From assembly GCA_015655465.1 (NCBI GenBank), contig JAATEY010000025.1, forward strand, positions 1 through 54,366: DNA of 54,366 nt, read 5' to 3'. The stretch's first letter is position 1. The number at the start of each line of letters is the position of its first letter. Positions 9,565 through 46,267 of this stretch are shown one piece after another. The notes below the pieces were generated by a model that was not told the origin of the DNA, did not search any database, and worked only from the letters and a program-made list of their open reading frames with translations. The stretch comes from Gammaproteobacteria bacterium (lineage in GTDB: Bacteria > Pseudomonadota > Gammaproteobacteria > Steroidobacterales > Steroidobacteraceae). A program made the translations under genes and the position numbers.

Positions 9565-10947
9565 ATGAGCACACTGCTGCGAAGCGGCTTCGATCGTCGC
9601 TATGTACTGGTCCCCATGCTGGCGGCCATCGTGCTGGTGATGTCGGTGTTCTTCGTTGCCGAAGCGCGTCGCGCCTACACCCGCGATCTGAGCCTCGTCA
9701 TCCGCGATCGTGAGGACCGGATGCGCAAGCTCACCGAGCTCATCTATGCGAGCCTGGAATCCGAGAGCGCGCAACGCGGTTATCTGCTGACCGGAGAGCC
9801 GGAGTACCTGCAGCCCTATGCCTCCGGACGCAAGCTGACCGAGCAGCTGCTCGCAGATCTCGAATCCCGGTACCGGGCGCGCGATCAGGTGGAGGTGCCG
9901 GTGCTGCGGGAAGTCCAGTCCATGCTCGAAACCAAGTACATCGAGATGGACCGGACGATCAAGCTGCTGGACGTGGGCGCAAACAGGACCGCGCTGCGAC
10001 TGATCAAGACGGATGTGGGCATGCAGGTCATGCAGCAGATCCGCACCAATATCGAGGTGCTGCGTTCGCGCGAGGGCGATCGAATCGCCGCCGGTGTTGC
10101 CGAATGGGACAAGGAGATCCGGGTCAACAGCCTGATAAACGGCCTGTCGACGGCTTTTACGCTGGCGTTGCTGATTGCGGTCGGACTGCTTGCGACCCGT
10201 GACATCAGGCGGCGCGACCTTGCCAACAGGGAGCTGGAGAACGAGGTGTCGCTGCGAACGGCGGAGCTGCGGGATCTGTCGGAGCACATGCTGCGGATTT
10301 CCGAAGTCGAAAAATCGGCGCTGGCGCGCGAACTGCATGACGAGCTGGGTGGCTTGCTGGTGTCGATGCGCATGGACTTCTCGCAGCTGCGGCGCAGGCT
10401 GCAGTTGCCTGATGCGGCTGCCGAGGAACGTTGGGCGCGCATCGATGCCGGGCTGAAGGCGGGCGTGGACCTGAAGCGGCGCGTAATCGAGGAACTGCGC
10501 CCGACACTGCTGGACAACATGGGCCTGGTGGTGGCGCTGCGCTGGCAGGCGGAGCAGAGTTGCCAGCAGGGCAACATGCAGCTGATTGCGCAACTGCCGG
10601 AATCAGAGCCGGAGCTCAACAACGAAGCGGCAATCGCCGTGTTCCGTACGGTTCAGGAGGCGCTTTCCAACATCCTGAAGCATGCCCGCGCCAGCGAAGT
10701 CCGGCTGGTGATGACGGTCCAGGGTGACCACGCGACCATCACGGTGGAAGACAACGGCGTCGGATTGCTGAATGATGCGACCGCGGGAGGGGGATCTCAC
10801 GGCCTCAAGCAGATGAAATTCCGCATACAGGCGATCCGCGGCAGCTGCGAAGTCAGGAATGGCCCGATCCGTGGCACGGTCACGACCATCCGCTTTCCCA
10901 TTGCGAGCAATGCGCGTGCGCCGGCCGGGGTGGAGGAGGCGACATGA
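9565..10947 (+). CDS. CHASE3 sensor histidine kinase (NarX/LuxR-RR type, HisKA_3 + HATPase)
   Basis: Periplasmic LTELIYASLESESAQRGYLLTGEPEYLQPY (CHASE3), EKSALARELHDELGGLLVSMRMDFSQLRRRL (HisKA_3), VQEALSNILKHARASEVRL and ITVEDNGVG (HATPase). GTG 9559 is an alternative start. Confidence 0.92.
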   Translation: MSTLLRSGFDRRYVLVPMLAAIVLVMSVFFVAEARRAYTRDLSLVIRDREDRMRKLTELIYASLESESAQRGYLLTGEPEYLQPYASGRKLTEQLLADLESRYRARDQVEVPVLREVQSMLETKYIEMDRTIKLLDVGANRTALRLIKTDVGMQVMQQIRTNIEVLRSREGDRIAAGVAEWDKEIRVNSLINGLSTAFTLALLIAVGLLATRDIRRRDLANRELENEVSLRTAELRDLSEHMLRISEVEKSALARELHDELGGLLVSMRMDFSQLRRRLQLPDAAAEERWARIDAGLKAGVDLKRRVIEELRPTLLDNMGLVVALRWQAEQSCQQGNMQLIAQLPESEPELNNEAAIAVFRTVQEALSNILKHARASEVRLVMTVQGDHATITVEDNGVGLLNDATAGGGSHGLKQMKFRIQAIRGSCEVRNGPIRGTVTTIRFPIASNARAPAGVEEAT

Positions 10948-10959
10948 TTCCGGCCGTGC

Positions 10960-11316
10960 TCAGCCGTTGCGTCGAAGCTCCACAAGGATCTCCGGCAAGC
11001 GGTCGAAATCCACCGACTTGTCGAGAAAGTATTCCACGCCATGGCGTCGGGCGAGTTCGCGGTACTGCGGCAGGGCGTAGTTGGTCATGACGATGGTCTT
11101 CGGGCGGTGCAGGCCGAGCGCCTCGAGCACGCCGAAGCCGGTGCCAACCGCCAGCTGCAGATCGAGAATCATGACATCGACGTCGGACCGGCGCGCGCTG
11201 TCGATGGCGGATTGCTGATCGCGCACCGTGGCAACGATGTTGACCTCGGGATCCGTTGTAAGCAAATCCCGTACGCGTGCGGCTATACGCTCCGAATCTT
11301 CCACCAGCAGGATATT
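10960..11316 (-). CDS. single-domain response regulator (REC)
   Basis: In-frame ATG 11316: MNILLVEDSERIAARVRDLL...DVDVMILDLQLAVGTGFGVLEAL...TIVMTNYA...YFLDKSVDFDRLPEIL; no output domain. Confidence 0.88.
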   Translation of the reverse strand, partial: NILLVEDSERIAARVRDLLTTDPEVNIVATVRDQQSAIDSARRSDVDVMILDLQLAVGTGFGVLEALGLHRPKTIVMTNYALPQYRELARRHGVEYFLDKSVDFDRLPEILVELRRNG

Positions 11317-11320
11317 CATT

Positions 11321-11953
11321 TCACTGCATGAGGCCGTTGCGGAGTGCATAGGTCGTGATGTCGGCGTTGGAAATGAAGTTCATCTTTTCCAGTACCCTGC
11401 TGCGGTAAGTGCTGACGGTCTTGACGCTGAGGCAGAGCTCCTGGGCGATATCGGAAACGGCCTTGCCGGTAGCCAGCTTGCAGAAGATCTGGAATTCGCG
11501 CTCGGACAGGCCCGCATGGATGGGCTTCTCGTTGTCCACATCCAGGTCCGTAACCAGCTGCTCGGCCAGCGTTGCACTGACGTAGCGACGACCGGTCAGC
11601 ACGATATGCACCGCCTTCAGCAGTTCTTCCGGCGCGCTTTCCTTGGAGATATAGCCGCTGGCGCCGCCCTTCAGCACGTTGACGGCATACTGCCGTTCCG
11701 GATAGCCGCTGACGATCAGCACCCGGGTTTCCGGATGTGCGCTGGTTACATTGCGGAGGATGTCGAGGCCGCTGCGGCCCGGCATGTTGATGTCGAGAAT
11801 CATCAGGTCGTAGCGCTCGCGGCGCAGCACTTCCATGGCCTGCTGGCCGGAGTCGGCTTCGTCGACCTTGGTAATGCGGGGGTCATCCAGCAGAAACTGC
11901 CGTAGCCCCGCGCGGACCACCGCGTGGTCATCGACAATCAGGATATGTGCCAT
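11321..11953 (-). CDS. LuxR/NarL-FixJ-family response regulator (UvrY/GacA-like architecture)
   Basis: MAHILIVDDHAVVRAGLRQFLLDDPRI...LMILDINMPGRSGLDILR...GYISKESAPEELLKAV + HTH LSEREFQIFCKLATGKAVSDIAQELCLSVKTVSTYRSRVLEKM. Confidence 0.93.
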   Translation of the reverse strand: MAHILIVDDHAVVRAGLRQFLLDDPRITKVDEADSGQQAMEVLRRERYDLMILDINMPGRSGLDILRNVTSAHPETRVLIVSGYPERQYAVNVLKGGASGYISKESAPEELLKAVHIVLTGRRYVSATLAEQLVTDLDVDNEKPIHAGLSEREFQIFCKLATGKAVSDIAQELCLSVKTVSTYRSRVLEKMNFISNADITTYALRNGLMQ

Positions 11954-12050: not shown

Positions 12051-12068
12051 TGTAGGACCTTTCCTACA
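12051..12068. promoter_or_regulatory. Perfect 18-bp palindrome TGTAGGA-CCTT-TCCTACA, candidate regulator operator
   Basis: Direct reading: tgtaggacctttcctaca between divergent genes 11953(-) and 12175(+). Confidence 0.65.
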
Positions 12069-12088
12069 GATAACACATATCGGACGGT

Positions 12089-12095
12089 TCCTACA
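12089..12095 (+). promoter_or_regulatory. TCCTACA element upstream of lipoprotein gene
   Basis: ggTTCCTACAgcc; 79 nt before ATG 12175. Confidence 0.5.
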
Positions 12096-12174: not shown

Positions 12175-12393
12175 ATGAATATTGCAAGACACCGTGCGTA
12201 CGTCCTGCTGGTTACCGCGGTCATCGGTCTCGGTCTTTCCGCCTGCGAGAAAAAAGGTCCCCTGGAAAAGGCGGGCGAGGAAGTGGATGAGGCAGTGGAC
12301 ACTCTCAAGAACGGCGGCAAGGAACCCGTTGCAGCGAAGATCGATGACGCTGTGGACGACGCGGCCAGGAAAGTGGAGAAGGCAACCAAGTAA
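12175..12393 (+). CDS. small lipoprotein
   Basis: In-frame ATG 12175: MNIARHRAYVLLVTAVIGLGLSACEKKGPLEKAGEEVDEAVDTLKNGGKEPVAAKIDDAVDDAARKVEKATK; lipobox LSAC plus amphipathic/charged tail. Confidence 0.85.
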   Translation: MNIARHRAYVLLVTAVIGLGLSACEKKGPLEKAGEEVDEAVDTLKNGGKEPVAAKIDDAVDDAARKVEKATK

Positions 12394-35012: not shown

Positions 35013-35368
35013 GCGTGGCGACGTCGCCACCATATACATTCCAATCGTCACGTTGATCAGATGCGCCGGTGAGCTTCCCGACCCTCATCTGAATCTGGTC
35101 CGGCGGTTCGATCAATGTGACTTTCTTCGTTCCTCTCCTGTCGCCACAGAGGGTGCCACGATTCCCATGCCTCCAATAAAGACACCCCGCTGGTCGAACA
35201 GCGACCGCTGGATTCCGCCCAAGAGATTCCCCTGGCCGCAACCTCTTGTGGCCAGGCTGCGAAAGCTCAGGTTTCCAGGTCGTTCCCTGACCACACTCTA
35301 GGCAAAAGGGAAGTACCGCCGATGAGGCAGTCCCTGCGGCCGAACGACATTCAAGCCTGTAGTCGTTG

Positions 35369-35375
35369 TCCTACA
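35369..35375 (+). promoter_or_regulatory. TCCTACA element upstream of TonB receptor gene
   Basis: CCTGTAGTCGTTGTCCTACACG; 187 nt before ATG 35563. Confidence 0.4.
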
Positions 35376-35562: not shown

Positions 35563-37515
35563 ATGGGGAAGTTCAGGGCCCGTTGCTGCCGGCGTGGGTG
35601 GCGGAAGTGGGCAGCCGGGTTGTTCGCCATCGGTTTCTGCCCGGTCGCGGCAATCTCCCCAGCGATGGCGCGAGACCTGGGTGCGGAGGATCTGTCCCAT
35701 CTGTCTCTGCAGGAACTCAGCGACATCCAGATCACATCGGTATCCAAATCGCCGGAGCCACTGCGGGAGGCGCCCGCTGCGATCTATGTCATTACCCACG
35801 ATGAGATAGAACGGTCGGGCGCGGCAAGTCTGGCGGAAGCCCTGCGGCTGGCACCCAATTTGCGCATCACCCAGTTGGGGTCGAGCAATTACGTCGCCTC
35901 GGTGCGCGGGTTCGGTGGTCATCCGGATGTTCAGGCATTTTCCAACAAATTGTTGTTGCTGATAGACGGGCGCAGCGTTTACTCCCCTCTCTTTTCGGGC
36001 ATTTATCTGGATGCCCAGGACCTGATGCTGGGTGACATCGACCGGATCGAAGTCATCAGCGGTCCGGGTGCCACACTCTGGGGTGCCAACGCGATGAACG
36101 GCGTCATCAATGTCATCACTCGACCGGCTTATCTTACCGATGGCACTCTGGTGGTCGCTACGGCCGGCAATCGTGAGCGGGACATGAGCGCCAGATATGG
36201 CGGGAAGATCGGTGACGATCTTGCCTATCGTTTCTACGGCAAGGTGTTTCAACGCGATGCCATGACGCAGGTGGACGGAACAAGTGCGCAGGATGACTGG
36301 TACAAAGGTCAGGCGGGCTTCCGGATCGAGCTGTCGCAGGCGGCAGGCACCGTAACCCTGCAGGGCGACGTCTACGAAGGTGATGAGGAGAGGGTTGGCC
36401 CAGGCAAGCAATCCCTGTCCGGAGAGAATCTTCTCGGCCGCTGGCAGTTCCACACCGATCGAACGGATTTTCAGCTGCAGGGCTACTTCGATCACACGCA
36501 ACGTGGAGCGCCGGTGGACGGCGTTCCGTTCGTGGTGAACACCTTTGACCTGGAGGCTCAGCAGAGTCTGAGCGCAGGGTCATCCCAAAGGCTGGTATGG
36601 GGCGCCGGCGCACGTGCTTATCACTATGACGTCAACAACTCCGCGTCCCTGCTTTTCCTGCCGCCCACCAGGACGCTGCAGCTGTGGAATCTCTTCGTCC
36701 AGGATACCTTGACGCTCAGTACAGCCGTCAAGGTGACGCTGGGACTGAAGCTCGAGCACCATTCCTACACGGGTTGGGAGCCGCAACCGGATGCGAGGCT
36801 GGCGTGGCAGGTCAATGATGCGACGCTGCTGTGGGCTGCGGTATCGCGCGCGATTCGCTCTCCCACTCCGCTCGATGACGATGTGGCCGAAAAAGTGGGA
36901 GGGGAGGTATTTCTTCAGGGCAATCCTGATTTCCAGAGCGAGAAGGTCGTAGCCTATGAAGTGGGTTATCGTGGCAATATCACGCCCACCTTCTCCCTGT
37001 CGGTGTCCAGCTTCTACAACGTCTATGACGATCTGCGCACCGTCGAACCGGCCAGCAGTTCGGTTTTTCTGCCATTGCGCTGGGACAACCTGATGAAAGG
37101 CCATACCTATGGAGTGACCGCCTGGGCCAAGTGGCAGGTTGCCGACTGGTGGCGGATTGCGCCTGGATTTGCCCTGCTCCGGAAGGAGCTCACGTTCAAG
37201 CCAGGAGCCTCCGCACTGCTGGACGTCGGGCAGTCCGGCAACGATCCACGCAGTCATGCGCTGCTCACCTCATCCATGGAACTGGGCACCGGCCAGACCC
37301 TGGATGTTTCCATCCGGCATGTCGCCCCACTGGCGCAGCCTGCTTTGCCGTCCTATACCGAAATGTCGGCACGATTCGGCTGGCGATTGTCTGCCGCATG
37401 GGAGCTCTCGCTTGCCGGAACCAATCTGCTGCACGCCAGGCATCAGGAATATCCGTCACCCGCAGGTGTGGAGATCGGTCGAAGCGTGATGGCCGGGGTG
37501 CGCTGGAGACATTGA
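35563..37515 (+). CDS. TonB-dependent receptor (plug + barrel)
   Basis: LSLQELSDIQITSVSKSPEPLREAPAAIYVITHDEIERSGAASLAEALRLAPNLRITQLGSSNYVASVRGFGG...LLLIDGRSVYSPLFSGIYLDAQDLMLGDIDRIEVISGPGATLWGANAMNGVINVITR. Confidence 0.95.
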   Translation: MGKFRARCCRRGWRKWAAGLFAIGFCPVAAISPAMARDLGAEDLSHLSLQELSDIQITSVSKSPEPLREAPAAIYVITHDEIERSGAASLAEALRLAPNLRITQLGSSNYVASVRGFGGHPDVQAFSNKLLLLIDGRSVYSPLFSGIYLDAQDLMLGDIDRIEVISGPGATLWGANAMNGVINVITRPAYLTDGTLVVATAGNRERDMSARYGGKIGDDLAYRFYGKVFQRDAMTQVDGTSAQDDWYKGQAGFRIELSQAAGTVTLQGDVYEGDEERVGPGKQSLSGENLLGRWQFHTDRTDFQLQGYFDHTQRGAPVDGVPFVVNTFDLEAQQSLSAGSSQRLVWGAGARAYHYDVNNSASLLFLPPTRTLQLWNLFVQDTLTLSTAVKVTLGLKLEHHSYTGWEPQPDARLAWQVNDATLLWAAVSRAIRSPTPLDDDVAEKVGGEVFLQGNPDFQSEKVVAYEVGYRGNITPTFSLSVSSFYNVYDDLRTVEPASSSVFLPLRWDNLMKGHTYGVTAWAKWQVADWWRIAPGFALLRKELTFKPGASALLDVGQSGNDPRSHALLTSSMELGTGQTLDVSIRHVAPLAQPALPSYTEMSARFGWRLSAAWELSLAGTNLLHARHQEYPSPAGVEIGRSVMAGVRWRH

Positions 37516-42867: not shown

Positions 42868-43989
42868 CTAGCGTCCAGCCGCATGAATGATCGGTGCGTC
42901 GCGGCCAACCTGCGTTGGGCCGTTTGGCTCGGTGATGGCGCCCCGACCCAGTACCTGTCCCCAGCGCCGCCAGCCCGGATGCGCATCGGCGGCGATTTTC
43001 AGCGAGGTAAGAATGGGAACAGCGAGAAACGCGCCGCCTATGCCCCAGGCGGTAGCGCCAATCAGCAGTCCCAGGATCACGACCAGCGGGTTCAACAACA
43101 GCTTCCTGCCCAGCAGTTGCGGCGTTACAAACTGCGACTCGGTGATATGCAGTACCAGGAATGCGGCCACCGGCAGGAACGTGATCGAGGCGAAGCCATG
43201 GTCCGCGAAACTCCCCGCCAGGATCAACGCGGCCGAAATCAATGCGCCGATGATGGGTACGAAGTTGAACAGGCCTGCCACGACTCCGTAGGCAGCCGCA
43301 TCCTTCACGTCCAGGGACCAGAGCAGGGCGCCTGTCGCGACGCCGAAACTGATGTTGATGACGGTGACCAGATAGAGGTACCGGGAAGCCTGTTGCCGGA
43401 TCGCCGCGCAGACCCGTAGCCAGGCGCGGCGCTCGCTCTTGTTCCGCACCGCCACCAGCACCGCACGGCCCACGCCTGAACCTGAGGTAAGGATGAAGAA
43501 GCACAGCACCACCGAAGTGCCCGCGCCAAGCAGCGATCGGGAAATGCCTGCGGCAACCGGCGTCAGCATGGTCAGCACCGCCTGCTGATCGTCTGTCTGC
43601 GTGCGGGCATTGCGGACAGGCGGCCGCGCCTGGCCGTCGGTGATGTCCATGACTTCATGATGTGCTATGCGCAGGATGTCCGGGCCGCGCGTAAGCAGTC
43701 CCAGCAGCGGCTGCCGCACCAGATAGACGGCGATCCCCACGGTGGTGAGCAGCAGGACCACGGCCAGCAGCGATGCGAGGCCACGTGGAAGGTGCGCCCG
43801 GCACAGGTGATTGCACAACGGCGACAGGGCGAGCGCCAGCAGAATGGCCGCGAACAGCGGTACTGCAACTGTCCGGCTCACTACCAGTGCTGCAAACGCC
43901 GCGACGCCGGCCGCGACCCGAACCCAGGGCATGAGACGCCTTCCATCCGACGCTGTTGCGGCAGCATCAGGGGAAGGGCGTGTGTTCAT
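42868..43989 (-). CDS. AI-2E family (PerM-like) transporter
   Basis: Internal ATG 43989: MNTRPSPDAAATASDGRRLMPWVRVAAGVAAFAALVVSRTVAVPLFAAILLALALSPLCNHL...NFVPIIGALISAALILAGSF...QFVTPQLLGRKLLLNPLVVILGLLIGATAWGIGGAFLAVPIL. Confidence 0.92.
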   Translation of the reverse strand: MNTRPSPDAAATASDGRRLMPWVRVAAGVAAFAALVVSRTVAVPLFAAILLALALSPLCNHLCRAHLPRGLASLLAVVLLLTTVGIAVYLVRQPLLGLLTRGPDILRIAHHEVMDITDGQARPPVRNARTQTDDQQAVLTMLTPVAAGISRSLLGAGTSVVLCFFILTSGSGVGRAVLVAVRNKSERRAWLRVCAAIRQQASRYLYLVTVINISFGVATGALLWSLDVKDAAAYGVVAGLFNFVPIIGALISAALILAGSFADHGFASITFLPVAAFLVLHITESQFVTPQLLGRKLLLNPLVVILGLLIGATAWGIGGAFLAVPILTSLKIAADAHPGWRRWGQVLGRGAITEPNGPTQVGRDAPIIHAAGR

Positions 43990-44576
43990 GCCGCCCGGCG
44001 CCATGCCTCTTGGTACCGTTTTGCGGAGATTTCCCAGTTGCTGTGTGCAAGCAGATCGCGCATGTAATGGTCGCGACCCTTGGCGCCGTAATCCGTCCAG
44101 TATGCGTGTTCCCACAGATCCACGACGTACAGCACTGCACTGTCGGCAGGAAGCCCGAATTCGTGCAGGTCGATCCAGTAGTTGTCGACGAGACCGCTTC
44201 GGGCCTCGAAGCAGGTCAGCACCCAGCCAGGCCCACGGGTCTTGCCAAGCTCCAGGATGTCGTCCTGCCATGCCTGGAATGAGCCGAAGCGTTGCGACAC
44301 CGCGGTGGAGAATGTGCCGTTGTTGCCTTCACCAGGCGCTTCGAACTGCTCGAAGAACAGCTCGTGCAGGCGTGCTCCATTGCCTTCGAATGACAGTCTG
44401 CGCGCCAGTGTTTCCCGTGGTGTCAGCGCAGCAGTCGCCGCCTGCGGAACAGTCGCATCGCGCAGCTGCTTCAGTACGGCTTCTGTCTGCTCGACATAGC
44501 CCTTGTAGAGTCCAAGGTGGGCCTCAACCGACGCTGCAGAGAGGTTGCCGAACGGCGCCAGTTTGAACTCCCTCAT
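43986..44576 (-). CDS. superoxide dismutase (Fe/Mn family)
   Basis: MREFKLAPFGNLSAASVEAHLGLYKGYV...LHELFFEQFEAPGEGNNG...GPGWVLTCFEARSGLVDNYWIDLHEFGLPADSAVLYVVDLWEHAYWTDYGAKGRDHYM. TTG 44585 is an alternative start. Confidence 0.92.
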   Translation of the reverse strand: MREFKLAPFGNLSAASVEAHLGLYKGYVEQTEAVLKQLRDATVPQAATAALTPRETLARRLSFEGNGARLHELFFEQFEAPGEGNNGTFSTAVSQRFGSFQAWQDDILELGKTRGPGWVLTCFEARSGLVDNYWIDLHEFGLPADSAVLYVVDLWEHAYWTDYGAKGRDHYMRDLLAHSNWEISAKRYQEAWRRAA

Positions 44577-44594
44577 GCTCCACAACCTCGCAGG

Positions 44595-44858
44595 TCAGTC
44601 TTTCCTGCGTGTGAATGAACGTGCAATGTCCGCCACCACGCCGATGCCGCTGGTGCCGACAATGCGTGTCGCCAGTACCGCCAGCACGGAACCCGAAAAC
44701 ATCAACACACGGCGGTTGCGCGGGTTGAACGCAAAGCGCATCACCTTGCTGCGGGGGAAATGATCCCCGTCATCGTCCTGGCCGTTGCGCAGGACGCGGG
44801 TGGCAGGAATCAGGTACTCGCGCAGCTGCCGGCGCGTGACATCCATGGGTTCGCTCAT
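44595..44858 (-). CDS. small membrane protein in YqjK-like position
   Basis: MSEPMDVTRRQLREYLIPATRVLRNGQDDDGDHFPRSKVMRFAFNPRNRRVLMFSGSVLAVLATRIVGTSGIGVVADIARSFTRRKD; ATGA overlap with the upstream gene. Confidence 0.7.
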   Translation of the reverse strand: MSEPMDVTRRQLREYLIPATRVLRNGQDDDGDHFPRSKVMRFAFNPRNRRVLMFSGSVLAVLATRIVGTSGIGVVADIARSFTRRKD

Positions 44859-45217
44859 GAGGCTCTCCGCCATTCCTGCAGTAGTGCCAGATCCTGTGCT
44901 GCTTCATCCCGCAGTGTCCTGCTGTGCGGCCCGAGGGTGGCATGTCGGACCGCAAGCATGGCCAGCACCGCCGTGGCGATCAGGCACAACAGCAACGATC
45001 CGATGCAGTAGTTCAGGCGCCACGGCGTATCCCAGAGCAGCGCCAGGCCCGTTGTCCACGCAGCCAGCAGCGTGGCGGTTGCCATCACCAGGGCCCCGGA
45101 CGCGAGCAGGGCGCGCCGGAGGAAGGAGGCCCGGTACTCGCCTGCGGCTTGCCCCACGAGTTCAACATATGAACCCAGGTGCTGTGCCGCAACCTGTGCC
45201 AGGCCCGCAAGCCTCAT
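44855..45217 (-). CDS. phage-holin-superfamily (YqjE-like) membrane protein
   Basis: Internal ATG 45217: MRLAGLAQVAAQHLGSYVELVGQAAGEYRASFLRRALLASGALVMATATLLAAWTTGLALLWDTPWRLNYCIGSLLLCLIATAVLAMLAVRH. Confidence 0.85.
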   Translation of the reverse strand: MRLAGLAQVAAQHLGSYVELVGQAAGEYRASFLRRALLASGALVMATATLLAAWTTGLALLWDTPWRLNYCIGSLLLCLIATAVLAMLAVRHATLGPHSRTLRDEAAQDLALLQEWRRAS

Positions 45218-45219
45218 CG

Positions 45220-45561
45220 CTACTTGCTCCTGATGAAGGCACCGAGCGCCAGGCCGGCAACTGCGGCGATGCCGATGGCAGTCCATGGGCTGTCGTGCAC
45301 GAAGCCGTCCGTAGCCTTGGCGGCGGCCTTGGTGGTTTCCACCGTCTTGTGGATGCTGCGCTCGGCGGTAGTACGCACCGCATTGATGGACGATTCAACG
45401 CGTTGACGGGCCCGCGAGATGTCCGAGTCCTGAAGCGGTGTGACGTGGCGGACCAGATCCTCGACGTCGTCGAGGAACTTGTGCAACTGGCTGCCCTTCT
45501 TCTGGACCACGTCGTCGGCACGATCTGCCAGGTTCGAAAACTTTTCTGCTGCTGATGTCAT
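45220..45561 (-). CDS. DUF883 (YqjD/ElaB-like) membrane protein
   Basis: MTSAAEKFSNLADRADDVVQKKGSQLHKFLDDVEDLVRHVTPL...VHDSPWTAIGIAAVAGLALGAFIRSK, classic C-terminal anchor. Confidence 0.9.
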   Translation of the reverse strand: MTSAAEKFSNLADRADDVVQKKGSQLHKFLDDVEDLVRHVTPLQDSDISRARQRVESSINAVRTTAERSIHKTVETTKAAAKATDGFVHDSPWTAIGIAAVAGLALGAFIRSK

Positions 45562-45565
45562 GTGA

Positions 45566-45730
45566 TTACCCCTTGCGTGTACGGCCAAAAATGAAAGTAG
45601 CTACCGCGAAGATCAGGAATACGACAAACAGGATCTTCGCGATGCCGGCGGCGCCGGCAGCAATGCCGGTAAACCCGAACAGCGCTGCGATCAGCGCTAT
45701 TACAAAAAAAACGACTGCGTAGTGAAGCAT
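45566..45730 (-). CDS. DUF1328 (YtjA-like) small membrane protein
   Basis: 54 aa [54 protein letters not shown], in frame inside the spurious 351-aa ORF of the track. Confidence 0.93.
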
Positions 45731-45820
45731 GAGTCCTCCGGTTGCCGGATTGCCCGGCTGCTGCAGGCAACAGTGCAGTGAATGCCTTGCGGATGTCGTA
45801 GTCCAAAGCTTCTGACCCGG

Positions 45821-45827
45821 TGTAGGA
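45821..45827 (-). promoter_or_regulatory. TCCTACA element (minus) upstream of DUF1328 operon
   Basis: ggTGTAGGAcgc on plus; 90 nt from ATG 45730(-). Confidence 0.5.
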
Positions 45828-45856
45828 CGCTGCCCACGAAGCGGGAATAGGAGGTG

Positions 45857-45863
45857 TCCTACA
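45857..45863 (+). promoter_or_regulatory. TCCTACA element upstream of BON gene
   Basis: ggtgTCCTACAagag; 92 nt before ATG 45956. Confidence 0.5.
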
Positions 45864-45955
45864 AGAGAAGCTGTGCGTTGCTGCTGCTGCGCGCCAGTGC
45901 CGTGTGCCACGCTGAGCCATACCCAATCCGGGAAAGTTTCAAGGGAGCAGTGAAC

Positions 45956-46267
45956 ATGAAGTACACGAGTGCAAAGTTGGTATTGGCTTGCGTGCTGGCT
46001 TTCGGCATGACTGGCTGCAATGTGTTTCGCGGTGAGTCCACGGCGGGCGAGTATGTGGACGATACGGTGATCACCACGCAGATCAAGGCCGAACTGCTGG
46101 AATCGAAGAAGGTTGACGGCTGGGACGTCAACGTCGACGTGTTGAAAGGCAGGGTCAGGCTGATCGGCTGGGCATCGGATGTCGCCGAGCGCAGGAAGGC
46201 GACTGAAATTGCCAAGTCCGTGAAGGGTGTGAAGTCGGTGGACAATCAGCTGAAGATCAAGAGCTGA
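45956..46267 (+). CDS. BON domain lipoprotein
   Basis: In-frame ATG 45956: [103 protein letters not shown]; lipobox MTGC. Confidence 0.93.

Follow-up and report, generated by a model that had tools for sequence, protein, structure and literature searches.

In the 54,366-nucleotide stretch of DNA analysed here (the window), a gene coding for a NarL/LuxR-type response regulator (RR) and a gene coding for a small lipoprotein are transcribed away from each other with a palindrome located between them. The question raised by this arrangement is whether the palindrome is an operator used by the adjacent RR to control its own expression, as a first-pass annotation of the sequence had suggested, or whether it is the site of a different regulator, a hairpin or repeat element, or a product of chance. 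We conclude that the palindrome, together with a second box beside it, is very likely the operator of the adjacent RR, which would be phosphorylated by a kinase and would regulate both itself and an envelope-stress regulon.

A perfect palindrome and a second box in the divergent region

The RR (11321..11953, minus strand) has a receiver domain (REC, Pfam PF00072) followed by a GerE helix-turn-helix domain (PF00196), and is the proposed binder of the palindrome. Directly downstream of the RR is a gene for a stand-alone CheY-like receiver (10960..11319, minus strand; PF00072) that is probably co-transcribed with the RR. Convergent with the RR and the receiver is a CHASE3-HisKA_3-HATPase sensor kinase (9565..10947, plus strand; PF05227, PF07730, PF02518) that is the probable cognate kinase of the RR. 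This cassette of RR, receiver and convergent kinase is also present in relatives and in Cupriavidus. On the other side of the palindrome, the divergent candidate target gene (12175..12393, plus strand) codes for a 72 amino acid lipoprotein with a signal peptide ending in LSAC, for which no Pfam family was found.

The palindrome itself (box 1, TGTAGGACCTTTCCTACA, 12051..12068) is an 18-bp element with perfect arms in a 7-4-7 layout which we propose to be an operator that the phosphorylated RR binds as a dimer. Its letters are exactly the TGTAGGA-CCTT-TCCTACA described in the first-pass annotation, and its distances of 98 nt to the RR start codon (11953, minus strand) and 107 nt to the lipoprotein start (12175, plus strand) agree with the earlier description of a position midway between the two genes, about 100 nt from each. 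The third TCCTACA reported 27 bp further on is also present, at 12089-12095, 27 bp beyond the copy in box 1, and can now be described more precisely as the right arm of a second, imperfect box (box 2, TATCGGACGGTTCCTACA, minus strand TGTAGGAACCGTCCGATA, 12078..12095). Box 2 matches in 12 of 14 letters, has the same 7-4-7 layout, and has its centre 27 bp from that of box 1. The additional claim that this is the only place in the window with a tight inverted repeat of these elements holds for the perfect 7-4-7 form, which occurs at 12051 alone, but has to be restricted to that form because imperfect 7-4-7 copies exist at 12078, 35358 and 45846 (12/14 each) and at 45821 (11/14). A sigma70-like promoter could not be recognised between the two divergent genes, and no box was found before the kinase in the window.

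Sequence, spacing and copy number of the box

Within the window, TGTAGGA is present in 14 copies versus 1.66 expected, a number that was reached by none of 100 shuffles. When spacers of 0-15 were compared, only the spacer of 4 was enriched, with eight places that match in at least 11 of 14 letters and four that match in at least 12, versus at most four and one, respectively, for the other spacers. Shuffling the 221-bp intergenic region 20,000 times never gave a 14/14 box and gave a box of at least 12/14 six times. A perfect inverted repeat is by itself unremarkable since the window holds 41 of them (7-bp arms, loops of 3-6 nt); the palindrome is set apart by its letters, its fixed spacing and its conservation.

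The whole host genome, which is a draft that is 82% complete, contains two perfect boxes. Sites with at most one mismatch number six, versus none for a reversed control pattern, and all six are intergenic; a simple gene caller assigns about 88% of the window to coding sequence. When up to three mismatches are allowed there are 121 sites versus 103 for the control, without a clear excess, so weak sites of this kind are untrustworthy.

Conservation of the box upstream of RR homologues

A scan of bacterial genomes for the RR gave 80 loci, the closest of which are in metagenome-assembled genomes of Steroidobacteraceae and other Gammaproteobacteria; more loci were added from relatives and family searches. 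Conservation beside RR orthologues, on which the first-pass annotation had made its reading depend, was assessed by scoring the 450 bp upstream of 101 non-identical RR homologues for the 7-4-7 box. With the spacer of 4, a box of at least 12/14 is present in 42 of the 101 homologues, which amount to fewer than 42 independent cases because the positives are related, and a box of at least 13/14 is present in 15. With other spacers from 0 to 12, zero or one locus reaches 12/14, and shuffled upstream regions gave a mean of 0.05 loci with a box of at least 12/14 (maximum 1). For example, in one near relative (L005) a perfect copy precedes the RR by 74 bp, and another (L003) has a 12/14 copy at -106. 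In the RR protein tree, box-bearing loci are found in several separate clades, specifically the clade of the window's own RR, a clade of 17 members of which 14 are positive, and another, more distant, in which 20 of 30 members are positive. The base matrix shows that the GT..GGA and CCTAC arms are near-invariant with a free 4-nt spacer, which would be expected for a DNA site but not for an RNA stem.

A box of at least 11/14 is absent from the 450 bp upstream of 52 of the 101 homologues, including close ones with 66-68% identity in which the RR comes after an NtrC-like gene. Close homologues that have no upstream box and an NtrC-type regulator gene preceding the RR are L006-L011, L086 and L087. 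L006-L010 have an 11/14 box (TGTGAGC-N4-TCCTACA) downstream of the RR, about 2.6-2.8 kb from its start; wherever the kinase appears on the gene map, the box precedes it. There is also one clade (L254, L208, L255, L212, L209, L217, L215 and L218-L220) in which an extra TGTAGGA half-site precedes the main box by exactly 10 bp, or roughly a helical turn. Cupriavidus and Paraburkholderia have no 7-4-7 match before the RR. The Cupriavidus loci L016, L017, L020, L024, L028, L030 and L037 have another block (ATGTCAGCCTGACACCGACAT), conserved in full, ahead of the RR and a conserved TGTAGGACTYGGCTGACA ahead of the CHASE3 kinase. Of the nine Cupriavidus/Ralstonia loci that were checked, seven have TGTAGGACTYGGCTGACA upstream of the kinase.

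Co-occurrence of the box with the RR in family genomes

We searched 217 genomes of the family for the consensus YGTMGGA-N4-TCCKACR; 85 of these genomes contain the RR at E values of up to 1e-58. A site is present in 34 of the 85 RR-bearing genomes versus 16 of the 132 genomes that lack the RR (Fisher p=3e-6). Among RR-bearing genomes, 19 of 54 consensus sites fall in the 500 bp that precede the RR versus 0.006 expected, a figure that is somewhat circular because the consensus was drawn partly from the same RR promoters. A search with the window's own letters gave a single genome match directly upstream of such an RR in each of four genomes (G005, G012, G041 and G001), with the match in G001 located beside a more distant RR (L106, 44% identical). 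The conservation beside RR homologues and the accumulation of genome-wide sites at the RR promoter both support the earlier reading of an autoregulated operator that would be bound by this RR.

One-mismatch matches in many relatives (TGAAGGAGATCTCCTACA and similar) were set aside as they are inside glmS or another coding gene. One such mimic of the box, TGAAGGAGATYTCCTACA, is found within the glmS coding sequence of L157, L158, L161, L169 and others and is a false positive of the motif scan.

Other boxes and the putative regulon

The box is not private to the RR promoter; it marks a putative regulon and belongs to the UvrY/GacA type of site. Within the window, a 12/14 box (AATAGGAGGTGTCCTACA, 45846..45863) is located between a gene for a BON-domain lipoprotein (45956-46267, plus strand) and a divergent DUF883/ElaB-like operon (45561, minus strand). 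An 11/14 box (TGTAGGACGCTGCCCACG, 45821..45838) is present in the same divergent promoter, 25 bp from the first, so that the two boxes have the two-box layout seen at 12051. The region from 43986 to 46267 contains the DUF883/ElaB-like gene and then small membrane-protein genes, divergent from the BON lipoprotein. A weaker candidate is a 12/14 box (TGTAGTCGTTGTCCTACA, 35358..35375) that precedes a gene for a TonB-dependent receptor (35665-37515, plus strand) by about 300 bp.

Strong sites elsewhere in the genome adjoin genes for a DUF4136 lipoprotein, a BrkB/YihY-family membrane protein, an MCP-domain protein and a SnoaL-like protein, and another adjoins an HlyD-type membrane-fusion (efflux) gene that is divergent from a GGDEF/EAL regulator. 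The second perfect box of the genome (L125:3982-3999; G000 C383) is located between this type of gene, coding for an HlyD-type efflux membrane-fusion protein, and a REC-GAF-GGDEF-EAL regulator that is divergent from it. Of the 57 boxes of at least 12/14 in homologous loci, 50 are intergenic, and boxes recur before genes for the RR, the kinase, the receiver and DUF883/ElaB-like, CsbD-like and DUF1328-like proteins, the last three names being read from the sequences of these loci without a profile search. The box is probably a conserved operator through which the RR controls its own gene and genes for cell-envelope protection. Literature searches for the motif, or for a regulon that combines CHASE3, BON, CsbD and DUF883 proteins, found no such system, apart from the paper on UvrY discussed below.

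Alternative explanations for the palindrome

It could be argued that a different GacA/UvrY-like or NarL-type regulator binds the box and that the adjacent RR is merely one of its targets, an explanation that we consider unlikely. The box does fit the general UvrY/GacA site, the genome codes for further NarL-type RRs, and a true GacA may be missing since the genome is 82% complete. However, the RR in the window is itself the best UvrY/GacA match that the genome offers. Specifically, its best NCBIfam profile is UvrY/SirA/GacA (NF007018; 171.9 bits versus a cut-off of 280), and a genome search with this profile gave the RR as the best match at 173.5 bits with no protein in the genome above the cut-off. 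The other NarL/FixJ-type RRs that were read in the genome have no KTVxxYRxR helix and no nearby box of at least 11/14, and the sites track the presence of the window's type of RR and cluster at its promoter.

Far less probable is that the palindrome is not a protein site at all, but an RNA hairpin (terminator or attenuator) or a REP-type repeat. Although the perfect arms could form a 7-bp stem, the palindrome is in a divergent promoter region in which no terminator was called, it has no T-run, and its arm letters are conserved rather than covarying around a free 4-nt loop. An Rfam scan of the window also gave no match and no Rsm-type sRNA. Some Pseudomonas REPs do start with TGTAGGAG, having a GC-rich stem after (T)GTAGGAG and tens to hundreds of copies (PMC2817692), but a REP element was rejected on layout and on copy number, with two perfect copies and six with at most one mismatch in this genome. 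Finally, chance could be invoked in view of the 41 perfect inverted repeats in the window, but it is contradicted by the way in which the specific sequence is conserved beside the RR, by its fixed spacing and by the genome-wide co-occurrence, and we give it almost no weight.

Proposed mechanism

In our preferred reading, in which the box is the operator of the adjacent RR, the CHASE3 sensor kinase would phosphorylate the RR with the stand-alone receiver probably competing for or draining phosphate. A dimer of the phosphorylated RR would then bind TGTAGGA-N4-TCCTACA as a variant of the UvrY/GacA 18-bp site, and from the two boxes of the divergent region would control its own operon as well as the small lipoprotein gene. 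Through the other copies of the box it would control the BON lipoprotein and the DUF883/ElaB-like protein and, in relatives, CsbD, DUF1328, the kinase and the receiver. We infer that binding occurs and depends on phosphorylation, that its effect is activation rather than repression, that the lipoprotein gene is under this control and that the receiver acts as a phosphate drain.

This analysis provides an uncharacterised RR/receiver/CHASE3 kinase cassette with a predicted DNA site, a predicted autoregulatory loop and a predicted set of targets among small envelope-stress genes. It also suggests that a sister regulator uses the GacA/UvrY-type 18-bp box before protein genes rather than mainly before sRNA genes. 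A broader proposal, which we offer tentatively and at somewhat under even odds, is that a GacA/UvrY-like lineage, which many Steroidobacteraceae-type genomes contain and which has a related cassette in Cupriavidus, drives envelope-stress proteins and its own kinase/receiver cassette directly via a Gac-type 18-bp box without a Csr/Rsm RNA relay, with the receiver tuning the flow of phosphate. CsrA is present in the genome.

Comparison with known systems

The ACTU motif of CrbR from the acetate regulon (PMC5715377) is also an imperfect inverted repeat of a LuxR-type RR that was found by conservation, but its sequence (e.g. TACTACCATCGTCGAAT) and its targets differ from those of the window box. 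The SreKRS three-component system of Xanthomonas was rejected as the closest system since its members have no helix-turn-helix domain (PMC4783713), whereas the window RR has a GerE helix-turn-helix.

Judged from its letters, the site looks like a variant form of the GacA/UvrY-type box. At csrB, UvrY (SirA in Salmonella) uses an 18-nt inverted repeat (TGTGAGAGATCTCTTACA) with TGTAGGAGA 5 bp downstream, and at csrC it uses TGTGAGACATTGCCGATA, with a consensus of TGTAAG-N6-CTTACA (PMC4682653). The csrB arrangement was seen directly in the E. coli MG1655 sequence, where the extra TGTAGGA is 5 bp downstream of the site, and the csrC site resembles box 2 of the window. The GacA upstream activating sequence at Pseudomonas rsmY/rsmZ is likewise TGTAAG-N6-CTTACA (PMC4950607), with an outer TGTA...TACA and arm spacing that are identical to those of the 18-bp palindrome. 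Written as TGTAGG-N6-CCTACA, the window box has the same length and spacing as the UvrY/GacA form TGTRAG-N6-CTYACA and is one base off per arm, having TGTAGGA arms where UvrY has TGTAAGA/TGTGAGA. The RR promoter of one relative (L014) contains the exact Gac form TGTAAG-N6-CTTACA (TGTAAGTAAATTCTTACA).

UvrY is also a NarL-type RR that has the KTVxxYRxR recognition helix in common with the window RR, with 35% identity between them. The window RR is nevertheless not filed as GacA/UvrY because it scores below the profile cut-off and has no uvrC linkage. Specifically, E. coli uvrY is directly upstream of uvrC, whereas the window RR is instead followed by the receiver and the convergent kinase, which is of the CHASE3/HisKA_3 type and not GacS-like. 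Finally, the main targets of UvrY are sRNA genes, in contrast to the window where the boxes precede protein genes, including the gene for the RR itself.
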